Source: Pelagibius marinus (lineage in GTDB: Bacteria > Pseudomonadota > Alphaproteobacteria > Kiloniellales > Kiloniellaceae). Taken from it: DNA of 64,000 nt. This document shows positions 2,833 to 13,796 of this stretch, piece by piece; the first letter of the stretch is position 1, and each line of letters begins with the position of its first letter. The notes beneath the pieces are model-generated. The model saw nothing but the letters and a program-made list of their open reading frames with translations, had not been told where the DNA came from and did no database searches. The position numbers were made by a program, and so were the translations under genes. The stretch spans positions 1-64,000 of the forward strand of contig NZ_JACSDK010000001.1 of the NCBI RefSeq assembly GCF_014925385.1, in the 5' to 3' direction.

Positions 2833-2887
2833 AACGTTTGTTCTGAAAGGCTTATCCTTGACGCCCGAACGTTCCTCTGGCAACGTT
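2833..2887 (+). promoter_or_regulatory. Probable ihfB promoter region with three AACGTT boxes
   Basis: The 331 bases between the rpsA terminator and ihfB hold no gene. An A/T-richer patch contains the palindromic hexamer AACGTT three times (2833-2838, 2868-2873, 2882-2887) and a -35-like TTGACG at 2858-2863. A candidate -10 at 17 bases (CAACGT) is poor, so the transcription start is uncertain. The boxes may bind a regulator or be chance. Confidence 0.3.
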
Positions 2888-3080
2888 TCCTGCACTTGCA
2901 GGCTGGGCAGAGGTCCCGGTGGTGCGAGGGCAGCGCGATGCGACCGCGGCAGGGAAAAACAAAAGCACAAGATTCCCCGCCGAAACCCAGTCGATAACGG
3001 CGGCGGATCGTGACCTGCGGGAGGTAGAACGGGATGGGGACGCCGGCCGCATCGCGGGTCGGGAGGGGAACGATGTCGCT

Positions 3081-3362
3081 ATGACGAAATCAGAACTGAT
3101 CCAACACATCGCGGATCTGAATCCGCACCTTTACCATCGAGACGTAGAGCGTATCGTGACGACGATCTTCGACGAGATCAGCGAAGCGCTCTCCCGGGGG
3201 GACAGGGTCGAGCTGCGTGGCTTCGGAGCCTTTTCGGTGAAACGCCGCGAGGCCCGGGTCGGCCGCAACCCGCGTACGGGTACGGCGGTGAACGTCTCGG
3301 AAAAGCACGTTCCCTTCTTCAAGACCGGCAAGCAGCTGCGCGAACGCCTGAACAACCGCTGA
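3081..3362 (+). CDS. ihfB: Integration host factor subunit beta
   Basis: IhfB pairs with IhfA to form the nucleoid protein that bends DNA sharply at specific sites. The 93-residue protein begins [11 protein letters not shown], the family N terminus, and carries the [25 protein letters not shown]-binding arm with the GRNPRTG signature that inserts in the minor groove. The frame is open further upstream, but ATG 3081 gives the normal length and is preceded by GGGAGGGGAA. An ATG at 3073 is out of frame. It follows rpsA as in most proteobacteria. Confidence 0.96.
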
Positions 3363-3491
3363 GCCCGGACTCCCCGCCGCCCGGGCAACCTGCGGGGGCG
3401 CCGGGGGGAATTTTATGACGGGTCTCGCGAAGCGGCGCCGATTGGGCTAAAGTCCGCCTGTGACCTTGGACCCTGAACGGCAGTTGCGCCC

Positions 3492-3854
3492 GTGCACTAC
3501 ATCTACGTGATCGTCACCGCCCTGTTCCTGATCGTCTTCGCGACCTTCACGTCGGCGAACCTGCAGGGCGTGACCATCGACTTCTGGCCCTTCGAATACC
3601 AGATCAACGCGCCCTTCGCCCTGGTCGCCCTGGGCTGCCTGCTGGTCGGCTTCCTGGTCGGCGCCTTCCTCATGTGGCTGCGCTTCGGCGCCGCGCGCGC
3701 CCGGGCCCGCCGGGCCGAGCAGCGCGCCGCCGTGCTGGAACGGGAACTGGGGGAGCTGAAGCGCTCCGCCGCCAGCGCGCCGCGCGGCCCCGGCGGCGGC
3801 TCTGCGCCCCAACTCGCTGCCCCCGAGCTCAAAGCGGTCTCCGGCAGGAATTAG
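3492..3854 (+). CDS. lapA: LapA-domain (DUF1049) inner membrane protein
   Basis: LapA-type proteins are small inner-membrane proteins; the gammaproteobacterial LapAB pair works in lipopolysaccharide assembly control. The 120-residue product has two membrane helices (about residues 3-21 and 40-64) separated by the short FWPFEYQINAPFA loop, then a basic coiled-coil-like tail (RARARRAEQRAAVLERELGELKR) and a low-complexity end. The start is GTG. No lapB partner is beside it. A TAAAGT -10-like box at 3448-3453 may drive it, but its -35 is weak. The position after ihfB is typical of Alphaproteobacteria. Confidence 0.82.
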   Translation: MHYIYVIVTALFLIVFATFTSANLQGVTIDFWPFEYQINAPFALVALGCLLVGFLVGAFLMWLRFGAARARARRAEQRAAVLERELGELKRSAASAPRGPGGGSAPQLAAPELKAVSGRN

Positions 3855-3861
3855 CTTTCCC

Positions 3862-4797
3862 ATGCGCGTCATCTCCGCCGCGGAGGTCGAGGCCGCGCTC
3901 GACTATCCCAGCCTTGTCGAGCGCCTGCGTCAGGCATTCCGCCGCGATATCGAGGTGCCGCTGCGCCATCACCACGACATCGAGGTGACGGGCGGCAACA
4001 GGGCGACCCTGCTGCTGATGCCGGCCTGGCAGGTCGACCGGCACATCGGCGTGAAGATGGTCACTGTCTTCCCCGACAACGGCCAGCGTTCGCTGCCCGC
4101 GATCATGGGCATCTACATCCTGTTGGACGGCAAGACCGGCTCGCCGCTGGCGCTGATCGACGGCCCCAAGCTGACGGTCAAGCGGACCGCCGCCGCCTCG
4201 GCGCTGGCCGCGCACTACCTGGCGCGGCAGGATGCCGAGCGCCTGCTGATGGTCGGCACCGGCGCGCTGGCGCCGGAACTTATCATGGCCCATGCGTCCG
4301 TGCGGCCGATCTGCAACGTGCTGATCTGGGGCCGCAACCCGAAGAAGGCGGAGAAGCTGGCCAAGCGCATGAACCGCCATGACTTTCGCGTCGACTGGAC
4401 CGACGATCTGGAGGCGGCGGCGCGCGGCGCCCATGTCATTTCCTGCGCCACGCTCTCGAGCGAGCCGCTGATCCACGGCGCGTGGCTGCAGCCCGGCACG
4501 CATGTCGACCTGGTCGGCGCCTTCCGCCCGGACATGCGCGAAACCGACGACGAGGCCGTACGCCGCGCCCGCGTTTTCGTCGACACCCGCGCCGGCGCCA
4601 CCAAGGAGGGCGGCGACATCGTGCAGGCGGTGGAGTCCGGCGCCCTGGACCCGGACGACATCGCCGGCGACCTTTTCGAGATAACCCGGGGCGAGCGCAG
4701 CGGGCGGCGCTTCTACGACCAGATCACCCTCTTCAAGTCGGTGGGCACCGCCATCGAGGATCTGGCCGCCGCGCAGCTTGCCTACGAGCGGGCCTAG
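3862..4797 (+). CDS. Ornithine cyclodeaminase / mu-crystallin family protein
   Basis: The family includes NAD(P)-dependent ornithine cyclodeaminase, which makes proline from ornithine, and Delta1-pyrroline-2-carboxylate and alanine dehydrogenases. The 311-residue protein shows the substrate-site lysine in GVKMVTVFP (Lys65), arginine in KRTAAAS (Arg108), the GTGALAPEL dinucleotide-binding turn near residue 129 and the late CVxGAFRPDMRE-like segment. It begins seven bases after lapA and precedes a flavin oxidase. The neighbour suggests a role in oxidising or reducing cyclic or N-substituted amino acids. The true substrate cannot be read from sequence, so no symbol is given. Confidence 0.85.
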   Translation: MRVISAAEVEAALDYPSLVERLRQAFRRDIEVPLRHHHDIEVTGGNRATLLLMPAWQVDRHIGVKMVTVFPDNGQRSLPAIMGIYILLDGKTGSPLALIDGPKLTVKRTAAASALAAHYLARQDAERLLMVGTGALAPELIMAHASVRPICNVLIWGRNPKKAEKLAKRMNRHDFRVDWTDDLEAAARGAHVISCATLSSEPLIHGAWLQPGTHVDLVGAFRPDMRETDDEAVRRARVFVDTRAGATKEGGDIVQAVESGALDPDDIAGDLFEITRGERSGRRFYDQITLFKSVGTAIEDLAAAQLAYERA

Positions 4798-4984
4798 CCC
4801 GGCCCGGGGGGCCGCCGGACCCAGGCTGGCCGCCGACTTTGTGACGGGGATACCGGGAGGCTGGATTTCGGGCCGCCCCGGCGTTATGCAGGACGCGGCG
4901 CCCCGCCGGTGATCCGCTGCCGAAGCCTGTATCGGCGGCGGCCTGGGTCGGCGGGCAGGCCAGCAGGCAAGAAGGTGCAAAGCC

Positions 4985-6103
4985 ATGAAAGTCATTATCA
5001 TCGGGGGCGGCATCGTCGGCTTGTCGACGGCCTGGGCCCTGGCGCGCAGCGGCCACGAGGCGCTGCTTTTCGAGCAGGGACCGCTGCCCCACGACGGCGG
5101 CGCCTCCTATGATCAACACCGTTTGATCCGCCTGCCCTACGCCGACCAGATCGGCTACTGCGCCATGGTCATCGACGCGCTGAAGGCCTGGCAGAGGATG
5201 TGGGACGACCTGGGCGAGTCCCACTACGCCGAGGTCGGCAGCCTGGCCCTGTCGAGCGAGGAGGGCGACTGGGCCGACCTGTCGCGCCAGACCCTCGACC
5301 ACCTGAGCCTCGATTACGCCACCCTGGACAAAAAGCAGATCGAGGCGCTCTGCCCCTTCATGAAGGTGCCCGAGAACGTCTGGGGCCTGCACAACGAGGC
5401 GGGCGGCGTGCTCTTCGCGGCGCGCATCGTCGAGGCGCTGATCCGCGACCTCGGCCACCGCGGCGTGAAGCTGCGCGACGAAACCCGCATTGTCGGCGTC
5501 GATCCGGCGGCCGGTTCGGTGACCCTGGAAAACGGCGAGCGCGAAAGCGCCGACGCCATCGTCGTCGCCGCCGGCGCCTGGACCGCCAAGCTGTTCCCCG
5601 AGTTGCAGCGCCGCGCCGTGCCGCACCGCCAGGTGGTGGCCTACATGGAGCCGCCGGAGGCCCACGCCGAATCCTGGGCCAAGGCGCCGGTCATGGTGCA
5701 CCTGCTGAACGACGTCGACATCTACGCCGCGCCGCCGGCCGGCGGCACCGAGCTGAAGTTCGGCTGCGGCCAGCACCGCCGGCCCGGCGACCCGGACAGG
5801 CTCGACCCCCTGGGCGACGACGAGGCCGCCCAGGTGGCCGGCGCCTTCGAGCCGCTGCTGCGCGACTTCGCCGACTACAAGGTGCTGCGCGGCCAGGTCT
5901 GCCCCTACGCCATCGCGCCGGACGAGCGCTTCGTCACCGAGAGCAACGGTCCGGTCCTGCTGATCGGCGGCTGCAGCGGCCATATGTTCAAGTTCGGCGC
6001 CCTGATGGGCGAGCAGCTGGCGCGCACCGCCACCGGCGAGACCGCCTTCAAGGACTTCAAGCTCTGGGCGGAAGGCCGCCACCAGAGCCTGACCCGCAAC
6101 TGA
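4985..6103 (+). CDS. FAD-dependent amine/amino-acid oxidase, sarcosine oxidase-like
   Basis: A DAO-family flavoprotein of 372 residues, resembling monomeric sarcosine oxidase and N-methyltryptophan oxidase. The N terminus is a clear FAD-binding fold (KVIIIGGGIVGLSTAWALA, residues 2-20). The C-terminal block QVCPYAIAPDERFV followed by CSGHMFKFGALMGE corresponds to the region of monomeric sarcosine oxidase where a cysteine carries covalent flavin. Cys306 here is the matching residue, so covalent FAD is likely. It probably oxidises an N-methyl or cyclic secondary amine to an imine, releasing peroxide. It lies between the cyclodeaminase-like gene and pyrF, and the 187-base gap before it holds nothing else recognisable. 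Confidence 0.85.
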   Translation: MKVIIIGGGIVGLSTAWALARSGHEALLFEQGPLPHDGGASYDQHRLIRLPYADQIGYCAMVIDALKAWQRMWDDLGESHYAEVGSLALSSEEGDWADLSRQTLDHLSLDYATLDKKQIEALCPFMKVPENVWGLHNEAGGVLFAARIVEALIRDLGHRGVKLRDETRIVGVDPAAGSVTLENGERESADAIVVAAGAWTAKLFPELQRRAVPHRQVVAYMEPPEAHAESWAKAPVMVHLLNDVDIYAAPPAGGTELKFGCGQHRRPGDPDRLDPLGDDEAAQVAGAFEPLLRDFADYKVLRGQVCPYAIAPDERFVTESNGPVLLIGGCSGHMFKFGALMGEQLARTATGETAFKDFKLWAEGRHQSLTRN

Positions 6104-6137: not shown

Positions 6138-6875
6138 ATGAGCAGCGACCTGAAACCCCACGAGCGCATCTTCGTCGGCCTCGACACGCCGGACATCGAC
6201 AAGGCCGCGCACCTGGCCAAGACCCTGGTCGGCAGCGTCGGCGGGGTGAAGATCGGCAAGGAGCTGTTCACCGCCCAGGGCCCCGACGGCGTGCGCATGG
6301 CCGCCGGCGGGACGCCGCTGTTCCTGGACCTGAAGTTCCACGACATCCCCAATACCGTGGCCGGCGCCATCCGCGCCGCCGTGCACCTGCGCCCCAAGAT
6401 CGTCAACGTTCACGCCTCCGGCGGGCGCGCCATGATGATGGCGGCGGCCGAGGCGGCGCGCGAGGCGTCGGAGGACCTGGGCGTCGAGCGCCCCCAGGTG
6501 ATCGGCGTCACGGTGCTGACCAGCCTGGACGCGAAGGACCTGGAAGAAGTCGGCCAGATGGGGCCCGCCGAGGCCCAGGTGGAGCGCCTGGCCCATCTGG
6601 CCCAGGACAGCGGCCTGGACGGCGTGGTCTGCTCGCCGCGGGAGATCGCCCTGCTGCGCCGGGCCTGCGGACCGGACTTTCTGCTGGTGGTGCCGGGCAT
6701 TCGCCCCACCTGGGCGGCGGCCGGCGACCAGAAGCGCATCATGACCCCCGAGGACGCGGTGGCCGCCGGCGCCGACTATATCGTCATCGGCCGGCCGATC
6801 ACCGCCGCCGAAGACCCCCTGGCCGCCGCCCGGCGCATTGCCGCCGACCTGGACGCGGCGGCGGTGGATGCCTGA
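6138..6875 (+). CDS. pyrF: Orotidine 5'-phosphate decarboxylase
   Basis: PyrF decarboxylates OMP to UMP, the last step of de novo pyrimidine synthesis. The 245-residue protein has the catalytic DLKFHDIPNTV motif (Asp-x-Lys-x-x-Asp) near residue 63, the KIGKEL segment, and the C-terminal VVPGIRPTW and IVIGRPITAAEDP phosphate-binding loops. ATG 6138 follows GGAGAGGAAG. Its 3' part (6675-6824) is nearly duplicated at the very start of the window. It is the last recognised gene before the seven-gene membrane array. Confidence 0.96.
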   Translation: MSSDLKPHERIFVGLDTPDIDKAAHLAKTLVGSVGGVKIGKELFTAQGPDGVRMAAGGTPLFLDLKFHDIPNTVAGAIRAAVHLRPKIVNVHASGGRAMMMAAAEAAREASEDLGVERPQVIGVTVLTSLDAKDLEEVGQMGPAEAQVERLAHLAQDSGLDGVVCSPREIALLRRACGPDFLLVVPGIRPTWAAAGDQKRIMTPEDAVAAGADYIVIGRPITAAEDPLAAARRIAADLDAAAVDA

Positions 6876-6895
6876 GCGCGGCGGCGGATAACCGC

Positions 6896-7777
6896 ATGAC
6901 GCAGGAACAACCGGCCGCGCCGGGCGGCCCGCCCGAAGGGCCGCTCGCCAACGTGGTGATCTGGGAGACCCTGATCGCCGCCTTCGCGATCACCTTCCGC
7001 GACCCCGGGCTGCTGCTCCGCGCCGCGGCCGGCGGGCTGCTGTTGCTCGCGGCCACGACCCTGGTCAGCGTTGCGCTGCCGCCCAACCCCTTCACCCTGC
7101 TGTTGATGCTTCTGGCGCCGATCGCCGCCTACAGCCATTTCGGCGTCAACTGGTACCGGGCGGTCCTGCTCGGCCCGCAGGGGCTGATCCGCCCGGCGCT
7201 GCGCTGGGACCGCCGGCACTGGCGCTTCTTCGGTCTCGGCCTGCTGCTGGGCGGCGGCCTGCTGGCGCTCGGCGGCGTGCTGTCCATGAGCCTGCCCCTG
7301 CCTCCGGCGCTCATCGCCCTCTGCCTGCTCTACCCGGCGGCGCGCAGCAGCTTCCTCTTCCCCGCCATCGCCGTGGAGGAGCCCTACAGCCTCGCCTACG
7401 CCTGGCGCCACACCAAGGGACAGGGCGGACGCCTGACCGTGCTGCTGCTGCTCGCCGGGCTGCCGCTGTTCCTGATCGTCGCCATCGCCGTCAGCCTGCT
7501 CTTCGATGCCCTGATCGGCATTTCCCTCTTCGACGTCGCATCACTGCAGGCCGGCGCGCCGGGCGCCCCCGAAGCGCGCCTCGGCGAGATCACGGGCGAG
7601 GGCGGGGACCTCGCGATTTCCCCGCTGAAGACCCTCAGCTTGAAGATGATCACCGAGGCCCTGACCATGGGGGTGCTGGCGGTGCTCTACAGCATCGTCG
7701 CCCTGGCCTTCCGCCGCTGCACCGGCTGGGTGCCCGCGGCGCCGGCGGGCCCGCCCGCCGACCGCGGTGCGCCCTGA
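6896..7777 (+). CDS. Array membrane protein 1 of 7
   Basis: This 293-residue integral membrane protein has no function I can name. About six helices are visible (roughly residues 40-60, 63-88, 109-130, 133-155, 177-205, 250-272). It shares three features with the next six genes: NWYRAVLLG after helix 2, the central FPAIAVEEPYSLAYAWRHTKG segment (the AWR codons start near 7400) and a CTGW motif near the C terminus. It lacks the ERFE ending of most paralogs. It starts 20 bases after pyrF and is separated from the next copy by about 100 bases, so it may be the founding or a separately expressed member. The central motif recalls membrane domains annotated next to glycerophosphodiester phosphodiesterases, but that is a loose resemblance from memory. 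Confidence 0.85.
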   Translation: MTQEQPAAPGGPPEGPLANVVIWETLIAAFAITFRDPGLLLRAAAGGLLLLAATTLVSVALPPNPFTLLLMLLAPIAAYSHFGVNWYRAVLLGPQGLIRPALRWDRRHWRFFGLGLLLGGGLLALGGVLSMSLPLPPALIALCLLYPAARSSFLFPAIAVEEPYSLAYAWRHTKGQGGRLTVLLLLAGLPLFLIVAIAVSLLFDALIGISLFDVASLQAGAPGAPEARLGEITGEGGDLAISPLKTLSLKMITEALTMGVLAVLYSIVALAFRRCTGWVPAAPAGPPADRGAP

Positions 7778-7792
7778 TTCCGGCCCTTTCCC

Positions 7793-7819
7793 TTGGTCGA
7801 ATTCCGGGCTAGCTGTTAT
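7793..7819 (+). promoter_or_regulatory. Weak candidate promoter before array gene 2
   Basis: TTGGTC (7793-7798) and TGTTAT (7814-7819) are 15 bases apart in the only sizeable gap inside the array (7778-7881). If real, it would let genes 2-7 be transcribed apart from pyrF and gene 1. The spacing is short, so confidence is low. Confidence 0.25.
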
Positions 7820-7881
7820 CGTTCTGGTTGGCAGGGTGCCGGAGAGGAGGCGCCGCGACAACGCAACTGGGGGAAGACATC

Positions 7882-8772
7882 ATGTCGATGGATGAGATGC
7901 CGGCAACGCCGATGAAGCTGTCTTTCGAGGCCACCTTCAGCGGCGCCTTCTCCACCGTTTTCGGCCAGTTCTGGATGTTCATCAAGGCGGCGCTGCTGCC
8001 GCTGCTGCTGGGCGTGGCGCTGGGCGTGGCCGGCGTGGCGCTGCTGTTCGTCGACCCGGCTCTGGCGCTTCCGGTCCAGTTTCTCGGCCTGCTGCCCTTC
8101 GCCATGCTGGGCGTCGCCTGCTGCCGTCTGACGCTGATCGGGCGCGCCGCGGGCGCCCTGCCGCGGCCCGTCTTCGGGCGGCGCACCTGGGTTTATTTCG
8201 GCTACACCCTGCTGTTCACCCTGTTCCTGTGGATACCCGTCGTCGTCGTCGGCTTCACGCTGCTCGGCAGCAGCCTGATCACGCTGGGAACCGACCCGGA
8301 GAGCCTCGACCCGGCAAACGCCGCGGCCATGGGCTACAGCGTCTTGCTGCTGTTTCCCGCCTACCTCATCTACTTCTACTTCCTGCTGCGCCTCAGCCTA
8401 GTGTTCCCGGCGGTCGCGGTGGACCAGAAGCTGGGCCTCGGCGGTTCCTGGCGCCTGACGCGCGGCGCGGCGGGCTTCAAGCTCTATGCCGTCTATGCCG
8501 TGCTCGTGATCGTTCTGCTCATCGCCATCATGATCGCCATGTTCGTGGTCAACGCCATCGTCGGCCTGTTCTGGTTCGGACCCGACTTCTCGCAGGACCC
8601 CGCGGACATCGACGTTGTGGCGGTGCTCGCCAGCCAGGCGCCGTCGCTGGTCCTGGGGCTGATCTTCGAATACCTGGGCTTTGCGATCATGATCGCCGCC
8701 CTGGCCGGCGCCTTCGCCCAGCTCAGCGGCTGGGGCGGCCCGCGCGAGGAAATCCTCGAGCGCTTCGAATGA
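7882..8772 (+). CDS. Array membrane protein 2 of 7
   Basis: A 296-residue, roughly six-helix membrane protein of unknown function. It shares with its neighbours an N-terminal amphipathic stretch (LSFEATFSGAFSTVFGQFWMF), a CCRLTLIGRA loop after helix 2, the central LVFPAVAV then SWRLTRGA motif (near 8446) and the LSGWGGPREEILERFE C terminus. ATG 7882 is chosen because GGGGGAAG precedes it; the frame is open further upstream to a TTG at 7828. Its TGA overlaps the next ATG as ATGA, so gene 3 is probably translationally coupled. Together with gene 3 it best represents the family's common ending. Confidence 0.87.
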   Translation: MSMDEMPATPMKLSFEATFSGAFSTVFGQFWMFIKAALLPLLLGVALGVAGVALLFVDPALALPVQFLGLLPFAMLGVACCRLTLIGRAAGALPRPVFGRRTWVYFGYTLLFTLFLWIPVVVVGFTLLGSSLITLGTDPESLDPANAAAMGYSVLLLFPAYLIYFYFLLRLSLVFPAVAVDQKLGLGGSWRLTRGAAGFKLYAVYAVLVIVLLIAIMIAMFVVNAIVGLFWFGPDFSQDPADIDVVAVLASQAPSLVLGLIFEYLGFAIMIAALAGAFAQLSGWGGPREEILERFE

Positions 8773-9587
8773 GTGTCCTGGAACACGCAACGACAGGCCG
8801 CCGCAAGCTGTCGATCTGGCAGGCAACCAAGGCAGCCTACCGCAGCACCTTCGCCAACCCGGGCCGCCTCGCCATTGCCGCGGCAGTCCCTTTCGTGCTG
8901 TCGCTGCTGCTCGACGGCTTCTTTGCGCCAGAAGCCTCAGGATTCGGCCTGACCCTGGCCTACACCGCCGCCAGCACCGCCATTCTAGCTCTCTTCGAGT
9001 TGACCTGGCTGCGCTTCCTGCTGTTGGGGCCGGCTCAAGCAGAGACCGGACTGCTGCCCGGCACTAACCGGCGGCTGCCGTCCTTTGTCGCATACAGTCT
9101 GCTGCTGCTGCTCCTTTTCATGCCGGCGCTGCTTCTCGTGCAGATCACGCAGGAAAATCCGGAGTCGGCATCGGCCGGCATCGTCATCGGAACGATCGTC
9201 GTCTACGTCCTCGCGATCTATCTCTGCACCCGCTTCATTCTGGTCTATCCGTGGATCGCCGTCGATGCACCGGAGCGCCTGACCGCATCCTGGCGCGCGA
9301 CGGCGGGCAACGGCCTGCGCCTGATCTTTGCCATACTCCTGGCCGGCATTCCCCTGCTCGTGACGGCGGGCATCATCATTGTCGTCGTTGTGGTTGTCTT
9401 CCATGGCGATGCCCAGCAGATAAACATCGCCGCGCAGCAAGGCCTCATGCCGTGGGTGAGCAACGCCATCGGCAATCTGCTGGTCTACATCTTCTACGCG
9501 CTCAGCTGCGGCGTCACGGCCTACGCCTTCTCGGCGCTGACCGGCTGGCAGGGCGATCGCCGCGAATTGCTGGAGCGGTTTGATTGA
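8769..9587 (+). CDS. Array membrane protein 3 of 7
   Basis: A 272-residue membrane protein with about six helices and no known function. Family features are KLSIWQATKAAYRSTFANPG at the N terminus, LTWLRFLLLGPA after helix 2, FILVYPWIAV followed by ASWRATAGN (near 9288), and the ending LTGWQGDRRELLERFD. The start ATG overlaps the preceding TGA by four bases (ATGA). The following gene starts inside this stop codon with TTG. Helix 5 is an unusually long run of I and V residues (GIIIVVVVVVF). The cytoplasmic or periplasmic side of the termini cannot be fixed without a topology calculation. Confidence 0.87.
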   Translation: MSVLEHATTGRRKLSIWQATKAAYRSTFANPGRLAIAAAVPFVLSLLLDGFFAPEASGFGLTLAYTAASTAILALFELTWLRFLLLGPAQAETGLLPGTNRRLPSFVAYSLLLLLLFMPALLLVQITQENPESASAGIVIGTIVVYVLAIYLCTRFILVYPWIAVDAPERLTASWRATAGNGLRLIFAILLAGIPLLVTAGIIIVVVVVVFHGDAQQINIAAQQGLMPWVSNAIGNLLVYIFYALSCGVTAYAFSALTGWQGDRRELLERFD

Positions 9588-10435
9588 GCCGAACCGGGGA
9601 GAACACCGGGGCCGCCCCGGGCGGCGAGCTGCGGGCGGCGGTCTTTGCCGTCAAGGCCTTCCACAACGTCTTTCGCACCCCCTGGGCTTTCGCAAAAATC
9701 GCTGCCCTGCCGGGATTGCTGATCTTGGGTATTCTTTGTGCCGCCAATTGGATTGCCTGGCCCAACCTCTACCTAGCGTCGTTTGGGCTGGGCGCCCTGG
9801 CTATTCCCCTCAGCGCGCTCGGCTTCGGCTGGCTGTGCTTTTCCCTGCGGGAGGCCCCGCCGCGGTTCTTGTCCGCCAGGCAGTGGAGCCCCTCCTACCT
9901 CCTGGTGTTCCTCTACAGCCTGCCCTGCGTGCTCTGGTTCGTAGCAGTGCCCGTCCTCCTGCTGGCGATGCTCCAGTCCTTCGCCGGCACGGCCCTCGAG
10001 CCCAGCTTCGAGGCGGGTCTGATCGTGGGCCTCTGCCACATCTCGCTGGGTCTCTATTTCATATCGCGCCTGATGCTGGCGACACCGGCAATCACCGCCG
10101 GCATGGATAGGACCCCCAAAGCCGCGTGGCGGCTGGCAGAAGGGCGGAGCCTGCGCCTTTTCGGCGGCCTCTACCTGCTCGTCGTCATCGTGCTGGCGGG
10201 GAGCATCTTCTGCCTTATCGGCTACTCCACCCTGATCAACCTGGCCAAGATCCCGCTGGGCATCTTCACCGATCCCCTCTGGCGCTATTGGTGGCTGCCG
10301 GACCGTTTTCAGGTGATCATCAGCCTCGGCCTCACGGCCGGTGCTGTTGTCTTCGCGGAATACTTGGCCCTGGTCTACCGCACGCTCACCGGCTGGCGCG
10401 GGCCGCAGCGGGAACTTCTGGAGCGATTCGAATGA
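9584..10435 (+). CDS. Array membrane protein 4 of 7
   Basis: A 283-residue membrane protein of unknown function, the most divergent central copy. The loop after helix 2 reads GFGWLCFSLREAP, the central motif is ATPAITAGMDRTPKAAWRLAEG (tryptophan codon near 10127), and the C terminus is LTGWRGPQRELLERFE as in genes 2 and 3. The start must be TTG at 9584, in a TTGA overlap with gene 3. A rare start codon inside a coupled string may reduce its translation relative to the neighbours. The next gene begins in an ATGA overlap. Confidence 0.84.
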   Translation: MSRTGENTGAAPGGELRAAVFAVKAFHNVFRTPWAFAKIAALPGLLILGILCAANWIAWPNLYLASFGLGALAIPLSALGFGWLCFSLREAPPRFLSARQWSPSYLLVFLYSLPCVLWFVAVPVLLLAMLQSFAGTALEPSFEAGLIVGLCHISLGLYFISRLMLATPAITAGMDRTPKAAWRLAEGRSLRLFGGLYLLVVIVLAGSIFCLIGYSTLINLAKIPLGIFTDPLWRYWWLPDRFQVIISLGLTAGAVVFAEYLALVYRTLTGWRGPQRELLERFE

Positions 10436-11214
10436 GCACTCAGGGACCACCGCCCGATCCGGTCGCGCGGTTGCAACTCTGGCCGACCGTCACCGAGGGC
10501 CTGAACCTGCTGCTGGCCAACCTGGGCGCCATGGCCAAGCTCGCGCTCTGGCCGCTGCTGCTCAGCATGGCCGCCGACTTCGCGCTGACGGCGACCTTCT
10601 GGGGCACGCCGCTTTACGGTGTCCTGAGGCTGCTCTGCCTGAACCTCATCTGGGTGCTCTTCGCCGTCGGCTGGCTGCGCCTGCTCCTCTTGCAGGACCG
10701 CAGAGTCATTCGCGTCTTTCCGCAGCTGACCCCGGACTACCGTCGCTTCACCTTCTACACGCTCGTCATCGCCCTCTTCGACCTGGCGCTGCAGCTCGGC
10801 CGCCGCTATCTGGATGACGTGCCCGACGACTTCGGCGCGCCGGGGCTCGAATACTGGCTGGCCTTTCTCGCGATCTCTTTCGTGAAGCTGCGCTTCTCCT
10901 TCGTCTATCCGGCGGTGGCCGCCGGGGAGACCTACAGCCTGGCGCTCTCCTGGCGGCACAGCGCCGGCTCCAGCCTGGCGCTGTTCGGCGCCCAGCTCAT
11001 CGCCGTCTTCATTCCGCTCATCCTGCTGAGCTACCTCGCCAACGCCCTGGCGGCCAGCCCCGACGCCTTTGTGCAGATCCTGATCTGGGTCGGCTCCTAC
11101 GCCGTGATGTGGCCGCTGGAGGCCGCCTACCTGGCGATCCTCGTCGTCGCCTTCCGTACCTGCACCGGCTGGGTCCCGCCGCCCGACAAGGCCATCGTGG
11201 AGCGCTTCGAGTGA
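10432..11214 (+). CDS. Array membrane protein 5 of 7
   Basis: A 260-residue membrane protein, the shortest copy, of unknown function. It has RLQLWPTVTEGLNLLLANLG at the N terminus, AVGWLRLLLLQDRR after helix 2, FSFVYPAVAAGETYSLALSWRHSAG in the centre (tryptophan codon near 10951), and CTGWVPPPDKAIVERFE at the end. The central motif and CTGWVP tail are closest to gene 1, which suggests these two share a more recent ancestor or have kept the older form. The open frame continues upstream, but ATG 10432 in an ATGA overlap gives the same layout as the other copies. Confidence 0.86.
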   Translation: MSTQGPPPDPVARLQLWPTVTEGLNLLLANLGAMAKLALWPLLLSMAADFALTATFWGTPLYGVLRLLCLNLIWVLFAVGWLRLLLLQDRRVIRVFPQLTPDYRRFTFYTLVIALFDLALQLGRRYLDDVPDDFGAPGLEYWLAFLAISFVKLRFSFVYPAVAAGETYSLALSWRHSAGSSLALFGAQLIAVFIPLILLSYLANALAASPDAFVQILIWVGSYAVMWPLEAAYLAILVVAFRTCTGWVPPPDKAIVERFE

Positions 11215-12188
11215 GTGCGACGTCAAACGAAGCGGCGAAGGCGGCGGCGGCGACCACGCGCCTGCCGGTCTGGTCGACCGCTGCGGCGGCCTGCAGCGCA
11301 GTTGCACGAAACCCCGGAACCTTCCTCAGGCTCGCCGCATTTCCGATCCTGCTCTGCCTGCTGATCCCGTTGGCAACGCTGCCCCTCTACCCCTTCATCA
11401 CGGAACAGCTTAATCGCTGGGGCGACATTCCGCTTGGCGCCTTGTTCGACAAGGCGGGACTGGAAAGCTTCATTGATCAGGTCCTGCTCTGCATACCCTT
11501 CACGCTCTTCCTCAGTCACTGGCTGCAGTTTCTCGCCGGCGGGGCATCCTCGCGGGTCACCGGAGCAATCTGGACTGAGCGCGACCTCGGCGTGATGGTC
11601 TACTGCCCGCTCTTCATTCTTCTCCCCCTGCTCATCTTTCTCAATTCCCTCTGGGAGCACTACGAGGCCCTTTCGGCCGAGCCCGGCTTCCTTCTATCGA
11701 CCATGTACTTCATCGGCTACAGCGCCGAGTGGCTCATCTATCTCGGCGTCTTCGCCCCCTACCTGTTCGCCTTGGCCGTCAACCTTCTTCTGCTTTCCCC
11801 CAGCGGACCGGCCTTCGCGGCGGCGGCGGCCGGCGAGCGCCTCGGGCTTTTTGCGGCCTGGCGGCTGACCCGTGGTCTCACCTTCCGCCTGCTGTGGCTT
11901 TGGCTGCTACTCTACGCCGGAACAGGCGTCGTCGGCGGGCTCCTGTCTTCTGCAATCGAATCGGCCTACAGCAACGGTCTTGAAGCAGGCTTCGACCCGA
12001 GCTTTGGCCTCATTCCACCGGACAACACCTTTGCCTGGGTCGCCGTCTGGCAAGTTGTGCAGCTGCCGCGCACGTTCTTTGTCTTTGTTGCCGCAGCCTT
12101 GATCGCCAGCGTCTGCCTGCGCGCCTACCACGGCGAAAACCCCGCAACATCCAGCGCACAACAACAGATCATGGAGCGTTTCGAGTGA
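11211..12188 (+). CDS. Array membrane protein 6 of 7
   Basis: A 325-residue membrane protein, the longest copy, of unknown function. After a short polar lead it shows ATTRLPVWSTAAAA, nearly repeated at the start of gene 7, then LSHWLQFLAGGASS after helix 2 and GPAFAAAAAGERLG with AAWRLTRGL in the centre (near 11856). The C terminus keeps only QQQIMERFE of the family ending, and the GW motif is lost. It starts at GTG 11211 in a GTGA overlap. Codon use is visibly richer in A/T endings than in pyrF or trpB, as in genes 3 and 7. It and gene 7 appear to be a recent sister pair by their N termini. Confidence 0.86.
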   Translation: MSATSNEAAKAAAATTRLPVWSTAAAACSAVARNPGTFLRLAAFPILLCLLIPLATLPLYPFITEQLNRWGDIPLGALFDKAGLESFIDQVLLCIPFTLFLSHWLQFLAGGASSRVTGAIWTERDLGVMVYCPLFILLPLLIFLNSLWEHYEALSAEPGFLLSTMYFIGYSAEWLIYLGVFAPYLFALAVNLLLLSPSGPAFAAAAAGERLGLFAAWRLTRGLTFRLLWLWLLLYAGTGVVGGLLSSAIESAYSNGLEAGFDPSFGLIPPDNTFAWVAVWQVVQLPRTFFVFVAAALIASVCLRAYHGENPATSSAQQQIMERFE

Positions 12189-13105
12189 GTGCAGAGACAC
12201 AAGCAGCTGCGGCAGCCACGCGCCTGCCGGTCTGGCCCACCGTGCGCGGTGCCTATGCGGGCGTCCTCACAAACCTCTGGCCGCTGACGAAGCTCGCCGC
12301 ACCTCCGTTGCTCGTCGCCCTGGCGATTCCGCTCACCACGGCCCCTTTCGATCCAATCACCACCTTGGTGCTCTTCCAACTCGTCGGCCGCGACACTGCC
12401 TATCTGCTGGAAATCGCCGGCATCCACCAGATGATCGACTTCGCGCTTTTGCTGATCCCCTTTTCCTACTTTGCAGTGAAGTGGCTGCACTTCTTGCGGC
12501 TAGGACAAGACCTCGGTGCCGCCACATCGTCGCCGGGAGCCGGAGGCTACCTGCTCTTCCTGCGACTCAGCCCGCTCCTTTTTGGGATCTATCCCGCAAT
12601 CGTGTTTCTCAATCAGATCTACATCGCCTATGGGTATGTGATCAGCCTACGGACATCTCTCGCCGATCCGGTCAGCACGCTACTGGTCCAACCTCATTGG
12701 ATCTATGGACTCGTCGCCGGCACGATGTTGGAGATCGTCATCGTCGCCCGGTTTGCCCCTGCCTTCGCCACCGCTGCCTATGGCGCGCCCGTCTCCCTGC
12801 GCGCGGCCTGGCGCAGCACCCGCGGGCAGACTTTCCGCCACGCGCTTATCTGGCTGCTCACCTATCGCCTCGCCTGGTTCGTTTTTGCGTACAGCATTGC
12901 CTCAGCTCTAGCGGAATTGCAGATTCCTGACAGGCTTTCTTTCCATGCGCTGTTTGGTGGCGGGAGCCTTGAAGAAAGAATGATCCTGGCATCAATGGAG
13001 CTGCCCCTAATCGCCGCGATGTTTGCGGTCATCGCACTGGGCCTCGGCTTCCTCGCCGACGTCCGCCGGCCATCAAGCCCGCGCACCCTCGCCGCCTTCG
13101 ACTGA
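12185..13105 (+). CDS. Array membrane protein 7 of 7
   Basis: A 306-residue membrane protein of unknown function closing the array. Shared features are ATRLPVWPTVRGAY at the N terminus, FAVKWLHFLRLGQD after helix 2, and ARFAPAFATAAYGAPVSLRA followed by AWRSTRGQ (near 12806). The C terminus ends RRPSSPRTLAAFD, a degenerate form of the ERFE/D tail. It begins at GTG 12185 in a GTGA overlap with gene 6. A candidate trpF promoter begins six bases after its stop, so the array operon probably ends here, though no terminator hairpin is visible. Confidence 0.86.
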   Translation: MSAETQAAAAATRLPVWPTVRGAYAGVLTNLWPLTKLAAPPLLVALAIPLTTAPFDPITTLVLFQLVGRDTAYLLEIAGIHQMIDFALLLIPFSYFAVKWLHFLRLGQDLGAATSSPGAGGYLLFLRLSPLLFGIYPAIVFLNQIYIAYGYVISLRTSLADPVSTLLVQPHWIYGLVAGTMLEIVIVARFAPAFATAAYGAPVSLRAAWRSTRGQTFRHALIWLLTYRLAWFVFAYSIASALAELQIPDRLSFHALFGGGSLEERMILASMELPLIAAMFAVIALGLGFLADVRRPSSPRTLAAFD

Positions 13106-13148: not shown

Positions 13149-13796
13149 ATGACTGTCCAGGTGAAAATCTGCGGCCTCTCGACGCCGGAGGCCATGACCG
13201 CCGCCATCGAGGGCGGGGCCGCCTTCGTGGGGCTGGTGTTCTATCCGCCGAGCCCGCGCGCTCTCACGCCCGCCCAGGCCGCGCCCCTGGCGGCGATGGT
13301 GCCGGAGGGGGTCGTGAAGACCGGCTTGCTGGTCGACGCCGGGGACGCCACGATCGAGGCCATCCTGAAAGAGGTGCCGCTGGACCTGCTGCAGCTGCAC
13401 GGGGCCGAGAGCCCGGCGCGGGTGGCGGAGATCAAGGCGCGCTTCGGCCTGCCGGTCATGAAGGTGGTGAAACTGCGCGGCCAAGGCGACCTGGAGGCCG
13501 TCGATCCCTACCTGGAGGCCGCCGACCGCCTGCTGTTCGACGCCAAACCGCCCGCGGACATGGAAAACCCCCTGCCCGGCGGCAATGCCGTGGCCTTCGA
13601 CTGGACCCTGCTGGCCGGGACGAGCTGGCCGCTGCCCTGGATGCTGGCCGGCGGGCTCACGCCCGAAAACGTCGCCCGGGCGGTGGAGATTTCCGGCGCC
13701 CCGGCGGTCGACGTCTCCTCCGGCGTGGAGGACGCGCCGGGACGGAAGAATCCGGCCAAAATCAAGGCCTTCCTGGCCGCCTGCCGGGCGCTTTAG
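13149..13796 (+). CDS. trpF: Phosphoribosylanthranilate isomerase
   Basis: TrpF converts phosphoribosylanthranilate to carboxyphenylamino-deoxyribulose phosphate in tryptophan synthesis. The 215-residue barrel has the N-terminal VKICGLSTPEAM motif with the catalytic cysteine, FVGLVFYPPSPR, LLQLHGAESPARV, a DAKPP-like loop near residue 135 and the C-terminal LAGGLTPENVA and DVSSGVEDAPGRKN phosphate-binding loops. ATG 13149 fits the family N terminus; the frame is open further upstream into gene 7. It should be the first gene of a trpFBA unit, but a 369-base gap with a large palindrome separates it from trpB. Confidence 0.95.
   Translation: MTVQVKICGLSTPEAMTAAIEGGAAFVGLVFYPPSPRALTPAQAAPLAAMVPEGVVKTGLLVDAGDATIEAILKEVPLDLLQLHGAESPARVAEIKARFGLPVMKVVKLRGQGDLEAVDPYLEAADRLLFDAKPPADMENPLPGGNAVAFDWTLLAGTSWPLPWMLAGGLTPENVARAVEISGAPAVDVSSGVEDAPGRKNPAKIKAFLAACRAL

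Follow-up and report, generated by a model that had tools for sequence, protein, structure and literature searches.

The stretch of DNA analysed here, hereafter the window, comprises the first 64,000 nucleotides (forward strand) of contig NZ_JACSDK010000001.1 of Pelagibius marinus (Alphaproteobacteria; Kiloniellales), and its pyrF-trpF interval holds seven consecutive plus-strand open reading frames (ORFs) that encode homologous proteins in tandem. Comparison with related genomes outlines an amplified and recombining array of membrane proteins, and our best functional guess is a repertoire of variants that share one platform and turn over readily. The explanation as a whole has a probability of about 0.5: the part that concerns the protein family and the evolution of the array is likely to be correct, and the repertoire function that we attach to it is tentative and less likely than not.

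Occupancy of the pyrF-trpF interval

The preliminary description of the window had presented the seven genes as inserted between pyrF and trpF, in a gene order otherwise conserved among relatives. Members of the family were detected in 65 of 98 whole genomes, encompassing the window's own genome, all seven others of its genus, 14 of 15 from the rest of its taxonomic family, 32 of 38 from its order and 11 of 37 from its class. Sixty loci were fetched around selected matches, with some genomes contributing two or three, and 39 of these presented one to nine copies flanked by both pyrF and trpF, five by trpF only and 16 by neither. Insertion of the array into a conserved gene order was hence rejected, since the family itself is the usual occupant of the site. 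As judged from these loci, genomes of the Kiloniellales usually carry one or a few family members between pyrF and trpF, and the array represents a lineage-specific amplification of the resident gene of a pyrF-X-trpF interval. A larger sample of the class returned matches at E 1e-6 in 108 of 289 genomes, and outside the genus none held more than five copies, these numbers being lower bounds with at most eight candidates per genome scored. A first scan of genome contigs with gene 5 had found no relative.

In 19 chosen loci with a family member away from pyrF-trpF, no neighbour was common to more than three. In a few genomes the pyrF-trpF interval also contains other genes. One such case is L048 (positions 2834-5682; genome G010, of the same family), where two genes lie between the last family copy and trpF; by eye, one looks like a secreted protein of repeat type and the other like a VanZ-like membrane protein extended at its C terminus. 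In two contigs of Kiloniellales metagenome-assembled genomes (L110 and L111), trpB lies some 6-7 kb downstream of trpF and does not adjoin it.

Homology among the seven genes and orthologous slots

Both alignment and BLAST confirm that the seven genes are tandem paralogues. Nine of the ten pairs among genes 1-5 were linked at E 5e-6 or better (the exception being genes 1 and 4, at 0.03), and genes 6 and 7 matched each other at E 5e-24, with best links to other array genes of about 6e-4. A profile of the seven run against the whole 5.44-Mb genome with E up to 10 returned these seven and nothing else. The motifs initially described as shared are conserved to different extents. The S/A-W-R-x-x-x-G block is present in all seven proteins, and W-R-x-x-x-G is, with one Ala and one Pro, the only invariant element of their alignment. 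Preceding it in the central block, P-A-x-A holds in genes 1, 2 and 5 and is replaced by PWIA in gene 3, PAIT in gene 4, AAAAA in gene 6 and ATAAY in gene 7. Only genes 1 and 3 match W-x-R/H-x-x-L-L-G exactly, and genes 5 (LLQ) and 7 (RLG) come close to it. The C-terminal GW...ERF[ED] signature is found in genes 2-5; gene 6 ends in ERFE without GW, gene 1 has GW without ERF, and gene 7, ending in LAAFD, has neither.

Within the genus, the array comprises seven copies in the window, nine in G001, four in G002, six in G003 (the last one broken), three in G004, one in G005, eight in G006 and five in G007; for G006 the genome scan gave nine matches and the locus listing eight ORFs. A first tree was built from 79 rows, covering the window and 30 of the 60 loci, with rows shorter than 170 amino acids excluded. 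In a more careful tree of 50 rows, every window gene groups with orthologs from other species, and this phylogeny within and across genomes, which the preliminary description had called for, recovers seven orthologous slots. Ultrafast bootstrap values were 100 for slots 1, 4 and 6, 99 for slots 3 and 7 and 98 for slot 5; for slot 2, the pair formed by the window and G007 received 100 and the wider slot 91. The regular members of the array are slot 1 (in 8 of 8 genus genomes), a slot-2 type and slot 5 (7 of 8 each), and the accessory members are slots 4 and 6 (3 of 8 each) and 7 (2 of 8); slot 3 is present in 6 of 8.

All seven slots also occur in G001, arranged as 1-2-2'-5-6-3-4-7 and accompanied by a ninth copy without a slot; the window's order is 1-2-3-4-5-6-7. 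The species tree inferred from five flanking proteins opposes ((window, G004), G005) to (G003, ((G001, G006), (G002, G007))), and G001 hence belongs to the other clade of the genus, which supports the high and old divergence of the seven genes put forward at the outset. Combining the slot and species trees, the seven slots would most simply be older than the split of the genus and later partly lost, down to one in G005. Exchange between species may be an alternative source for the slots shared with G001, and the grouping of window genes 2 and 5 with G007 copies, contrary to the species tree, suggests that such exchange has also taken place. Two terminal copies are possibly decaying: the last one in G003 (L041, 7768-8571) is split by two TAG stops, and in the last one of G001 (L039, 13551-14354) a TGA lies shortly before the first usable start and the conserved tail is missing.

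Gene-end element and recombination boundaries

Only two species pairs, the window (G000) with G004 and G001 with G006, were close enough for boundaries to be defined at the DNA level. The five flanking proteins of the window and G004 are 93-96% identical, yet G004 has no slots 3, 4, 6 and 7. The two joints of the G004 array coincide with a 15-base gene-end element, GAGCGNTTYGANTGA, which codes for ERF[ED] and the stop and contains the start codon of the next gene. At joint 1, slot 2-like DNA runs to the stop and is followed by slot 5 from its start (switch at L042 7384-7395, element at 7379-7393); at joint 2, slot 5 runs to its stop and is followed by the sequence that in the window follows slot 7 (switch at 8162-8169, element at 8158-8172). 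Between G001 and G006, homology ends exactly at the end of an element twice and starts 4 base pairs (bp) before one once. Five of the eight boundaries in both pairs thus lie in or within 4 bp of an element, and none lies mid-gene. The chance figure of 2.6e-10 for this coincidence assumes uniform boundaries and counts only these five, and is a guide at most. Gene 2 has also been exchanged between the window and G004, with 39% amino-acid identity between the two copies and that of G004 grouping with slot 2'; on the left, BLAST homology breaks off at window position 7830, within the spacer that precedes the gene, and the right boundary lies at least 56 bases before the stop, the last 56 bases being identical. 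The right end of a block exchanged between G001 and G006 is found in the spacer that precedes trpF, 27 and 38 bp beyond the last gene. Overall, these sequence comparisons indicate that gene content changes by recombination of whole genes, with most resolved boundaries at the gene-end element.

A genome-wide search with the GAGCGNTTYGANTGA pattern returned five hits, all in the array, and none with a reversed control, which shows only that the gene-end element is not a dispersed site. The Arg codon reads CGC, CGG, CGA, CGC and CGT in elements 1-5. A fixed DNA recombination site was rejected on this basis, since the codon takes all four CGN forms, and this variation argues that the element is kept as protein and serves as a short homology. 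Elements directly before a start codon and separated from the previous gene by 190-331 bp were also observed in L039 (upstream of 8790) and L041 (upstream of 4039 and 5060), and are probably scars of deleted copies.

Superfamily membership

None of the seven proteins reaches a Pfam cut-off, in agreement with their first description as proteins of unknown function, and scans of the window proteins with Pfam, NCBIfam and PHROGs yielded no family assignment; a search for relatives by sequence in the PDB found none. Profile comparisons were based on an alignment (A2) of 110 of the 119 family sequences, leaving out two G003 fragments, L061, one sequence of L074, three of L077, L087 and one of L098. 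In hhalign, A2 matched an alignment of a local UPF0259/DUF975-like family (A8) over 225 columns with probability 98.2 and E 5.8e-14 (for one comparison), and alignment A1 matched A8 at E 5.5e-7. Two A8 members match UPF0259, DUF975 and GPDPase_memb weakly (E 1e-4 to 4e-3). At E <=0.05, 23 of the 110 A2 members match DUF7544 and 20 match GPDPase_memb, the best member against Pfam reaching E 1.1e-7, and a relative, L112, exceeds the DUF7544 cut-off (29.5 vs 27 bits). Direct hhalign comparisons with three domains fused to glycerophosphodiester phosphodiesterase (GDPD) and with Escherichia coli YciC were not significant (probability 4 and 0.4) and count against membership. As a whole, the profile evidence points to the array proteins as distant members of the UPF0259/DUF975/GPDPase_memb/DUF7544 superfamily of membrane proteins.

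The array proteins share with this superfamily, which includes YciC (UPF0259), a common core around P-A-x-A/V...S-x-x-x-T-x-G, and the local UPF0259/DUF975-like family and the genus copies outside slot 1 both end in F-D/E. They differ from it in lying below the Pfam cut-offs and in having no phosphodiesterase domain, and the long array, the gene overlaps and the ERF[ED] tail are features of the window's branch. The preliminary description had considered that a single known transporter or channel family, occurring singly elsewhere, might account for the array; the family is indeed single in many relatives and part of a wide superfamily, but we know of no tested function for the UPF0259/DUF975/GPDPase_memb superfamily. 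The E. coli yciC gene (L128, 4921-5664), which we take to be the namesake of UPF0259, lies about 3 kb from trpA with ompW, yciE, yciF and yciG in between, likely a coincidence.

Conserved C-terminal tail

A hydrophobic-x-x-R-F-D/E-stop ending is shared by genes 2-6 and by most of their counterparts. Among the 34 intact genus copies outside slot 1, 30 end in xRF[ED]-stop and 33 in F[ED]-stop, as does none of the eight slot-1 copies. Eleven of the 30 copies with an xRF[ED] tail have no overlapping gene behind them. The possibility that the tail is a by-product of the Shine-Dalgarno sequence of the next gene was rejected for this reason, and the tails DRFS (L047), ERFS (L050), ERFA (L055) and ETFS (L056) of the second copies in genus g3 were also counted against it. 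The eleven tails without an overlapping gene and the variable Arg codons hence argue that the tail is kept as protein.

The window's genome contains a second locus of the superfamily (G000:C13:44000-58000, L189), with three matched, near-tandem genes (4476-5240, 6553-7314 and 7371-8108), all of which encode proteins ending in AAVFD-stop. The preceding ORF (3529-4479) is similar by eye, has another ending and no Pfam match, and the neighbours encode RDD, SpoIIM, DUF58, MoxR-type and DUF4350 proteins. Similar UPF0259/DUF975-like sets were observed in G004 (L192; five ORFs ending in VFD, two of them matched by the search) and in G002 (L191; three matched genes). Tails between both forms occur in slot 7 (LAAFD and LGVFD) and in the last G006 copy (LAVFD). 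The ERF[ED] and AAVFD tails may be homologous and could dock to a common partner.

Predicted fold

Structure models of the products of genes 2 and 6 present six long helices and short elbow helices, with hydrophobic moments of 0.21-0.52 in the short helices and 0.06-0.18 in the long ones. Foldseek searches against the PDB identified PNS1, a eukaryotic CTL protein, as the highest-probability match for both models (0.98 and 0.82). The predicted fold consists of a short helix and a helical hairpin, three times, and resembles CTL/PNS1 and CysZ; an internal threefold repeat was not significant in hhalign (P 0.012-0.34). The layout predicted by the models, with helix hairpins separated by short membrane-parallel helices, may be common to the CTL/SLC44 proteins (PNS1, CTL1); the number of helices differs, CTL having ten, and Choline_transpo was not among the nine families matched by the 110 members at E 0.05. 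For gene 2, the fold family that followed was CysZ sulfate permease (probability 0.51 and 0.38), which is also described as similar to PNS1 (PMC13160678). CysZ differs in its hemi-penetrating hairpins and dual-topology oligomers (PMC5967866), and EI24, the CysZ family, was not matched by any of the 110 members.

By charge, the elbows and both ends are predicted to be cytoplasmic and the variable loops periplasmic, labels that rest on the models and on charge counts, with segment borders set by hand. On average, the three elbow segments contain 2.1-2.2 Lys and Arg residues and the periplasmic loops, whose lengths vary, 0.1-0.4. Identity of the third elbow reaches 60-75% within slots 1, 2, 3 and 5; for the periplasmic loops, 11 of 12 values fall at 15-44% and the remaining comparison consists mostly of gaps.

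Proposed function of the array and alternative explanations

In the interpretation favoured here, all copies would use the third cytoplasmic elbow and the tail to interact with the same partner or membrane function, and the specificity of each copy would come from the diverged remainder of its protein. The array would then be a set of interchangeable variants, behaving most like polymorphic membrane arrays for immunity or stress protection, and not a fixed machine. In a more specific and rather doubtful form, prokaryotic proteins with the CTL/SLC44 fold would be encoded in a chromosomal cassette array, and a coding 15-base joint would allow in-frame exchange of whole genes; since this joint encodes both the docking tail and the next start, recombination would always yield a working coupled array, whose copies would form a periplasmic repertoire that varies and a cytoplasmic docking platform that stays constant.

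Several observations weigh against a repertoire of this kind. The array contains no toxin, receptor or soluble partner, and membrane proteins under weak constraint should also show variable loops and fast copy turnover. Many relatives have a single copy, suggesting a housekeeping function that a repertoire leaves unexplained, and the broken G003 copy with its two TAG stops and the suspect ninth copy of G001 fit birth and decay without need. Three of the eight boundaries lie away from the gene-end element (two in spacers, one near a gene end), and the uniqueness of the element proves little, its pattern having been written from the same five instances with 0.13 chance hits expected. The PNS1 matches have E values of 0.40 and 0.47 and template modelling (TM) scores (TMq) of 0.52 and 0.39. 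A simple division into a conserved and a variable face also has exceptions: identity is only 29% in the second elbow of slot 5, and between gene 1 and its G004 ortholog the least conserved segment is helix 4 (44%) and not a loop. Six orthologous pairs of G001 and G006 evolve slowly, with ratios of nonsynonymous to synonymous substitution rates (dN/dS) of 0.14-0.33 (flanks 0.03-0.23), and hence no general positive selection is shown. On the favourable side, dN/dS between the window and G004 reaches 0.53 in gene 1 and 0.41 in gene 5 (0.10-0.20 in five flanking genes); this raised divergence may partly reflect exchange, since the synonymous rate (dS) is higher too (0.44 and 0.31, against 0.14-0.25).

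The alternative that fares best, about as probable as the repertoire and likewise on the improbable side, is a role in envelope or lipid homeostasis, with a lipid-facing bowl like that of CTL/SLC44, paralogues specialised for lipids or conditions, and extra copies acting as dosage or condition variants. In three superfamily members the membrane domain is followed by a glycerophosphodiester phosphodiesterase domain (PF10110 and PF03009 each exceed the cut-off), and the second superfamily locus of the genome adjoins the MoxR-type, DUF58, SpoIIM and RDD genes. CTL structures hold an unidentified larger ligand, and their authors speculate on lipid homeostasis (PMC13160678). However, no lipid gene lies beside the array, the fold link is weak, and lipid homeostasis alone does not account for copy exchange.

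A strict immunity array, with every copy acting against a single polymorphic antibacterial toxin in the way that TsaI copies counter TspA variants, appears distinctly less probable. The array copies are polytopic, tandem, non-identical, one to nine in number and recombining at short shared blocks. The Firmicutes arrays of TsaI, EsaG and TipC are likewise strings of non-identical paralogues, with EsaG and TipC immunity genes gained and lost by recombination at shared blocks and polytopic TsaI present in 2-16 copies, whereas little recombination was found in TsaI itself (PMC9484751). The family here is a different one and its joints lie mostly at gene ends, so that the likeness is in behaviour. 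Between pyrF and trpF, the window's array and the other seven of the genus consist only of family copies, with gaps of at most 403 bp and no cognate toxin, no wider toxin search having been run. DUF443 is not among the matched Pfam families, the NCBIfam model for tandem proteins with five transmembrane segments (TIGR01218) matches 1 of 110 members (E 0.013), and many relatives keep a single copy. PADLOC models run against the 110 members gave no match beyond one at E 0.02, and an identity with a PADLOC system was rejected.

We attribute a similarly low probability to neutral birth and decay, whereby a permissive operon tolerates tandem duplicates that diverge by drift, with no new roles under selection. 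It would explain the broken G003 and suspect G001 copies, the reduction to one copy in G005 and the raised dN/dS between the window and G004 and among G002, G003 and G007 (0.27-0.42 in four of five comparisons, 0.90 in the fifth), but not the purifying selection on the six G001/G006 pairs (0.14-0.33), nor slots with a conserved tail and third elbow common across the genus.

Least probable is the hetero-oligomeric complex of seven subunits proposed in the preliminary description: genes 2-7 overlap and slot 1, a slot-2 type and slot 5 occur together in 7 of 8 genus genomes, but copy numbers range from one to nine, G004 has three copies and G005, sister to the window and G004, only slot 1, single slots or pairs have been lost or exchanged, slots 4, 6 and 7 occur in only 3, 3 and 2 of 8 genomes, and block order differs between the window and G001. 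An obligate seven-subunit complex is hence unlikely, because a species of the same genus keeps one copy.

Array layout

The coordinates of the array, its elements and its flanks are given in Table 1. The five 4-base overlaps said to chain genes 2-7 (ATGA, TTGA, ATGA, GTGA and GTGA) were confirmed, and these genes are probably co-translated, which supports their proposed joint production. The gap between genes 1 and 2 is the probable start of this coupled block, with no promoter-like site identified on the plus strand. An alternative TTG start of gene 2 at 7828 would add 18 residues. Promoter-like sites were at chance level (1 vs 0.6 expected), and nine terminator-like sites were found, against 5.0 expected.

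Table 1. Features of the pyrF-trpF interval in the window.
Feature	Position	Strand	Remarks
pyrF	6138-6875	+	Upstream flank, anchored by tblastn in relatives; 95-96% identity with G004
Array gene 1 (slot 1)	6896-7777	+	Resident copy type, in all 8 genus genomes; without ERF[ED] tail
Gap between genes 1 and 2	7778-7881	+	104 bp; Shine-Dalgarno-like GGGGGAAG
Array gene 2 (slot 2)	7882-8772	+	ATG with GGGGGAAG leader; structure modelled, predicted local distance difference test (pLDDT) 87.5
Gene-end element 1	8758-8772	+	GAGCGNTTYGANTGA; counterpart of G004 recombination joint 1
Array gene 3 (slot 3)	8769-9587	+	Weak GPDPase_memb match, E 5e-4
Gene-end element 2	9573-9587	+	
Array gene 4 (slot 4)	9584-10435	+	TTG start within overlap
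Gene-end element 3	10421-10435	+	Other counterpart of G004 joint 1
Array gene 5 (slot 5)	10432-11214	+	
Gene-end element 4	11200-11214	+	Counterpart of G004 joint 2
Array gene 6 (slot 6)	11211-12188	+	GTG start; structure modelled, pLDDT 82.2
Gene-end element 5	12174-12188	+	
Array gene 7 (slot 7)	12185-13105	+	GTG start; closest paralogue is gene 6; tail LAAFD
trpF	13149-13796	+	Downstream flank, then trpB and trpA; tblastn anchor in relatives

Significance

UPF0259, DUF975 and GPDPase_memb are named as uncharacterised families or known only as domains, and the role of CTL proteins is disputed. Literature searches on the array family, the pyrF/trpF gene order, the host genera and the MoxR cluster, covering open-licence papers only, found nothing on this family. 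The superfamily and the style of array evolution are already known; the joint is unusual and the array unusually large. The gene-end joint provides a clear natural example of whole-gene modular shuffling with translational coupling kept. With a constant elbow and tail, a changing remainder, and species with one, three and nine copies in one genus, the array offers a comparative and genetic system for the role of this fold.

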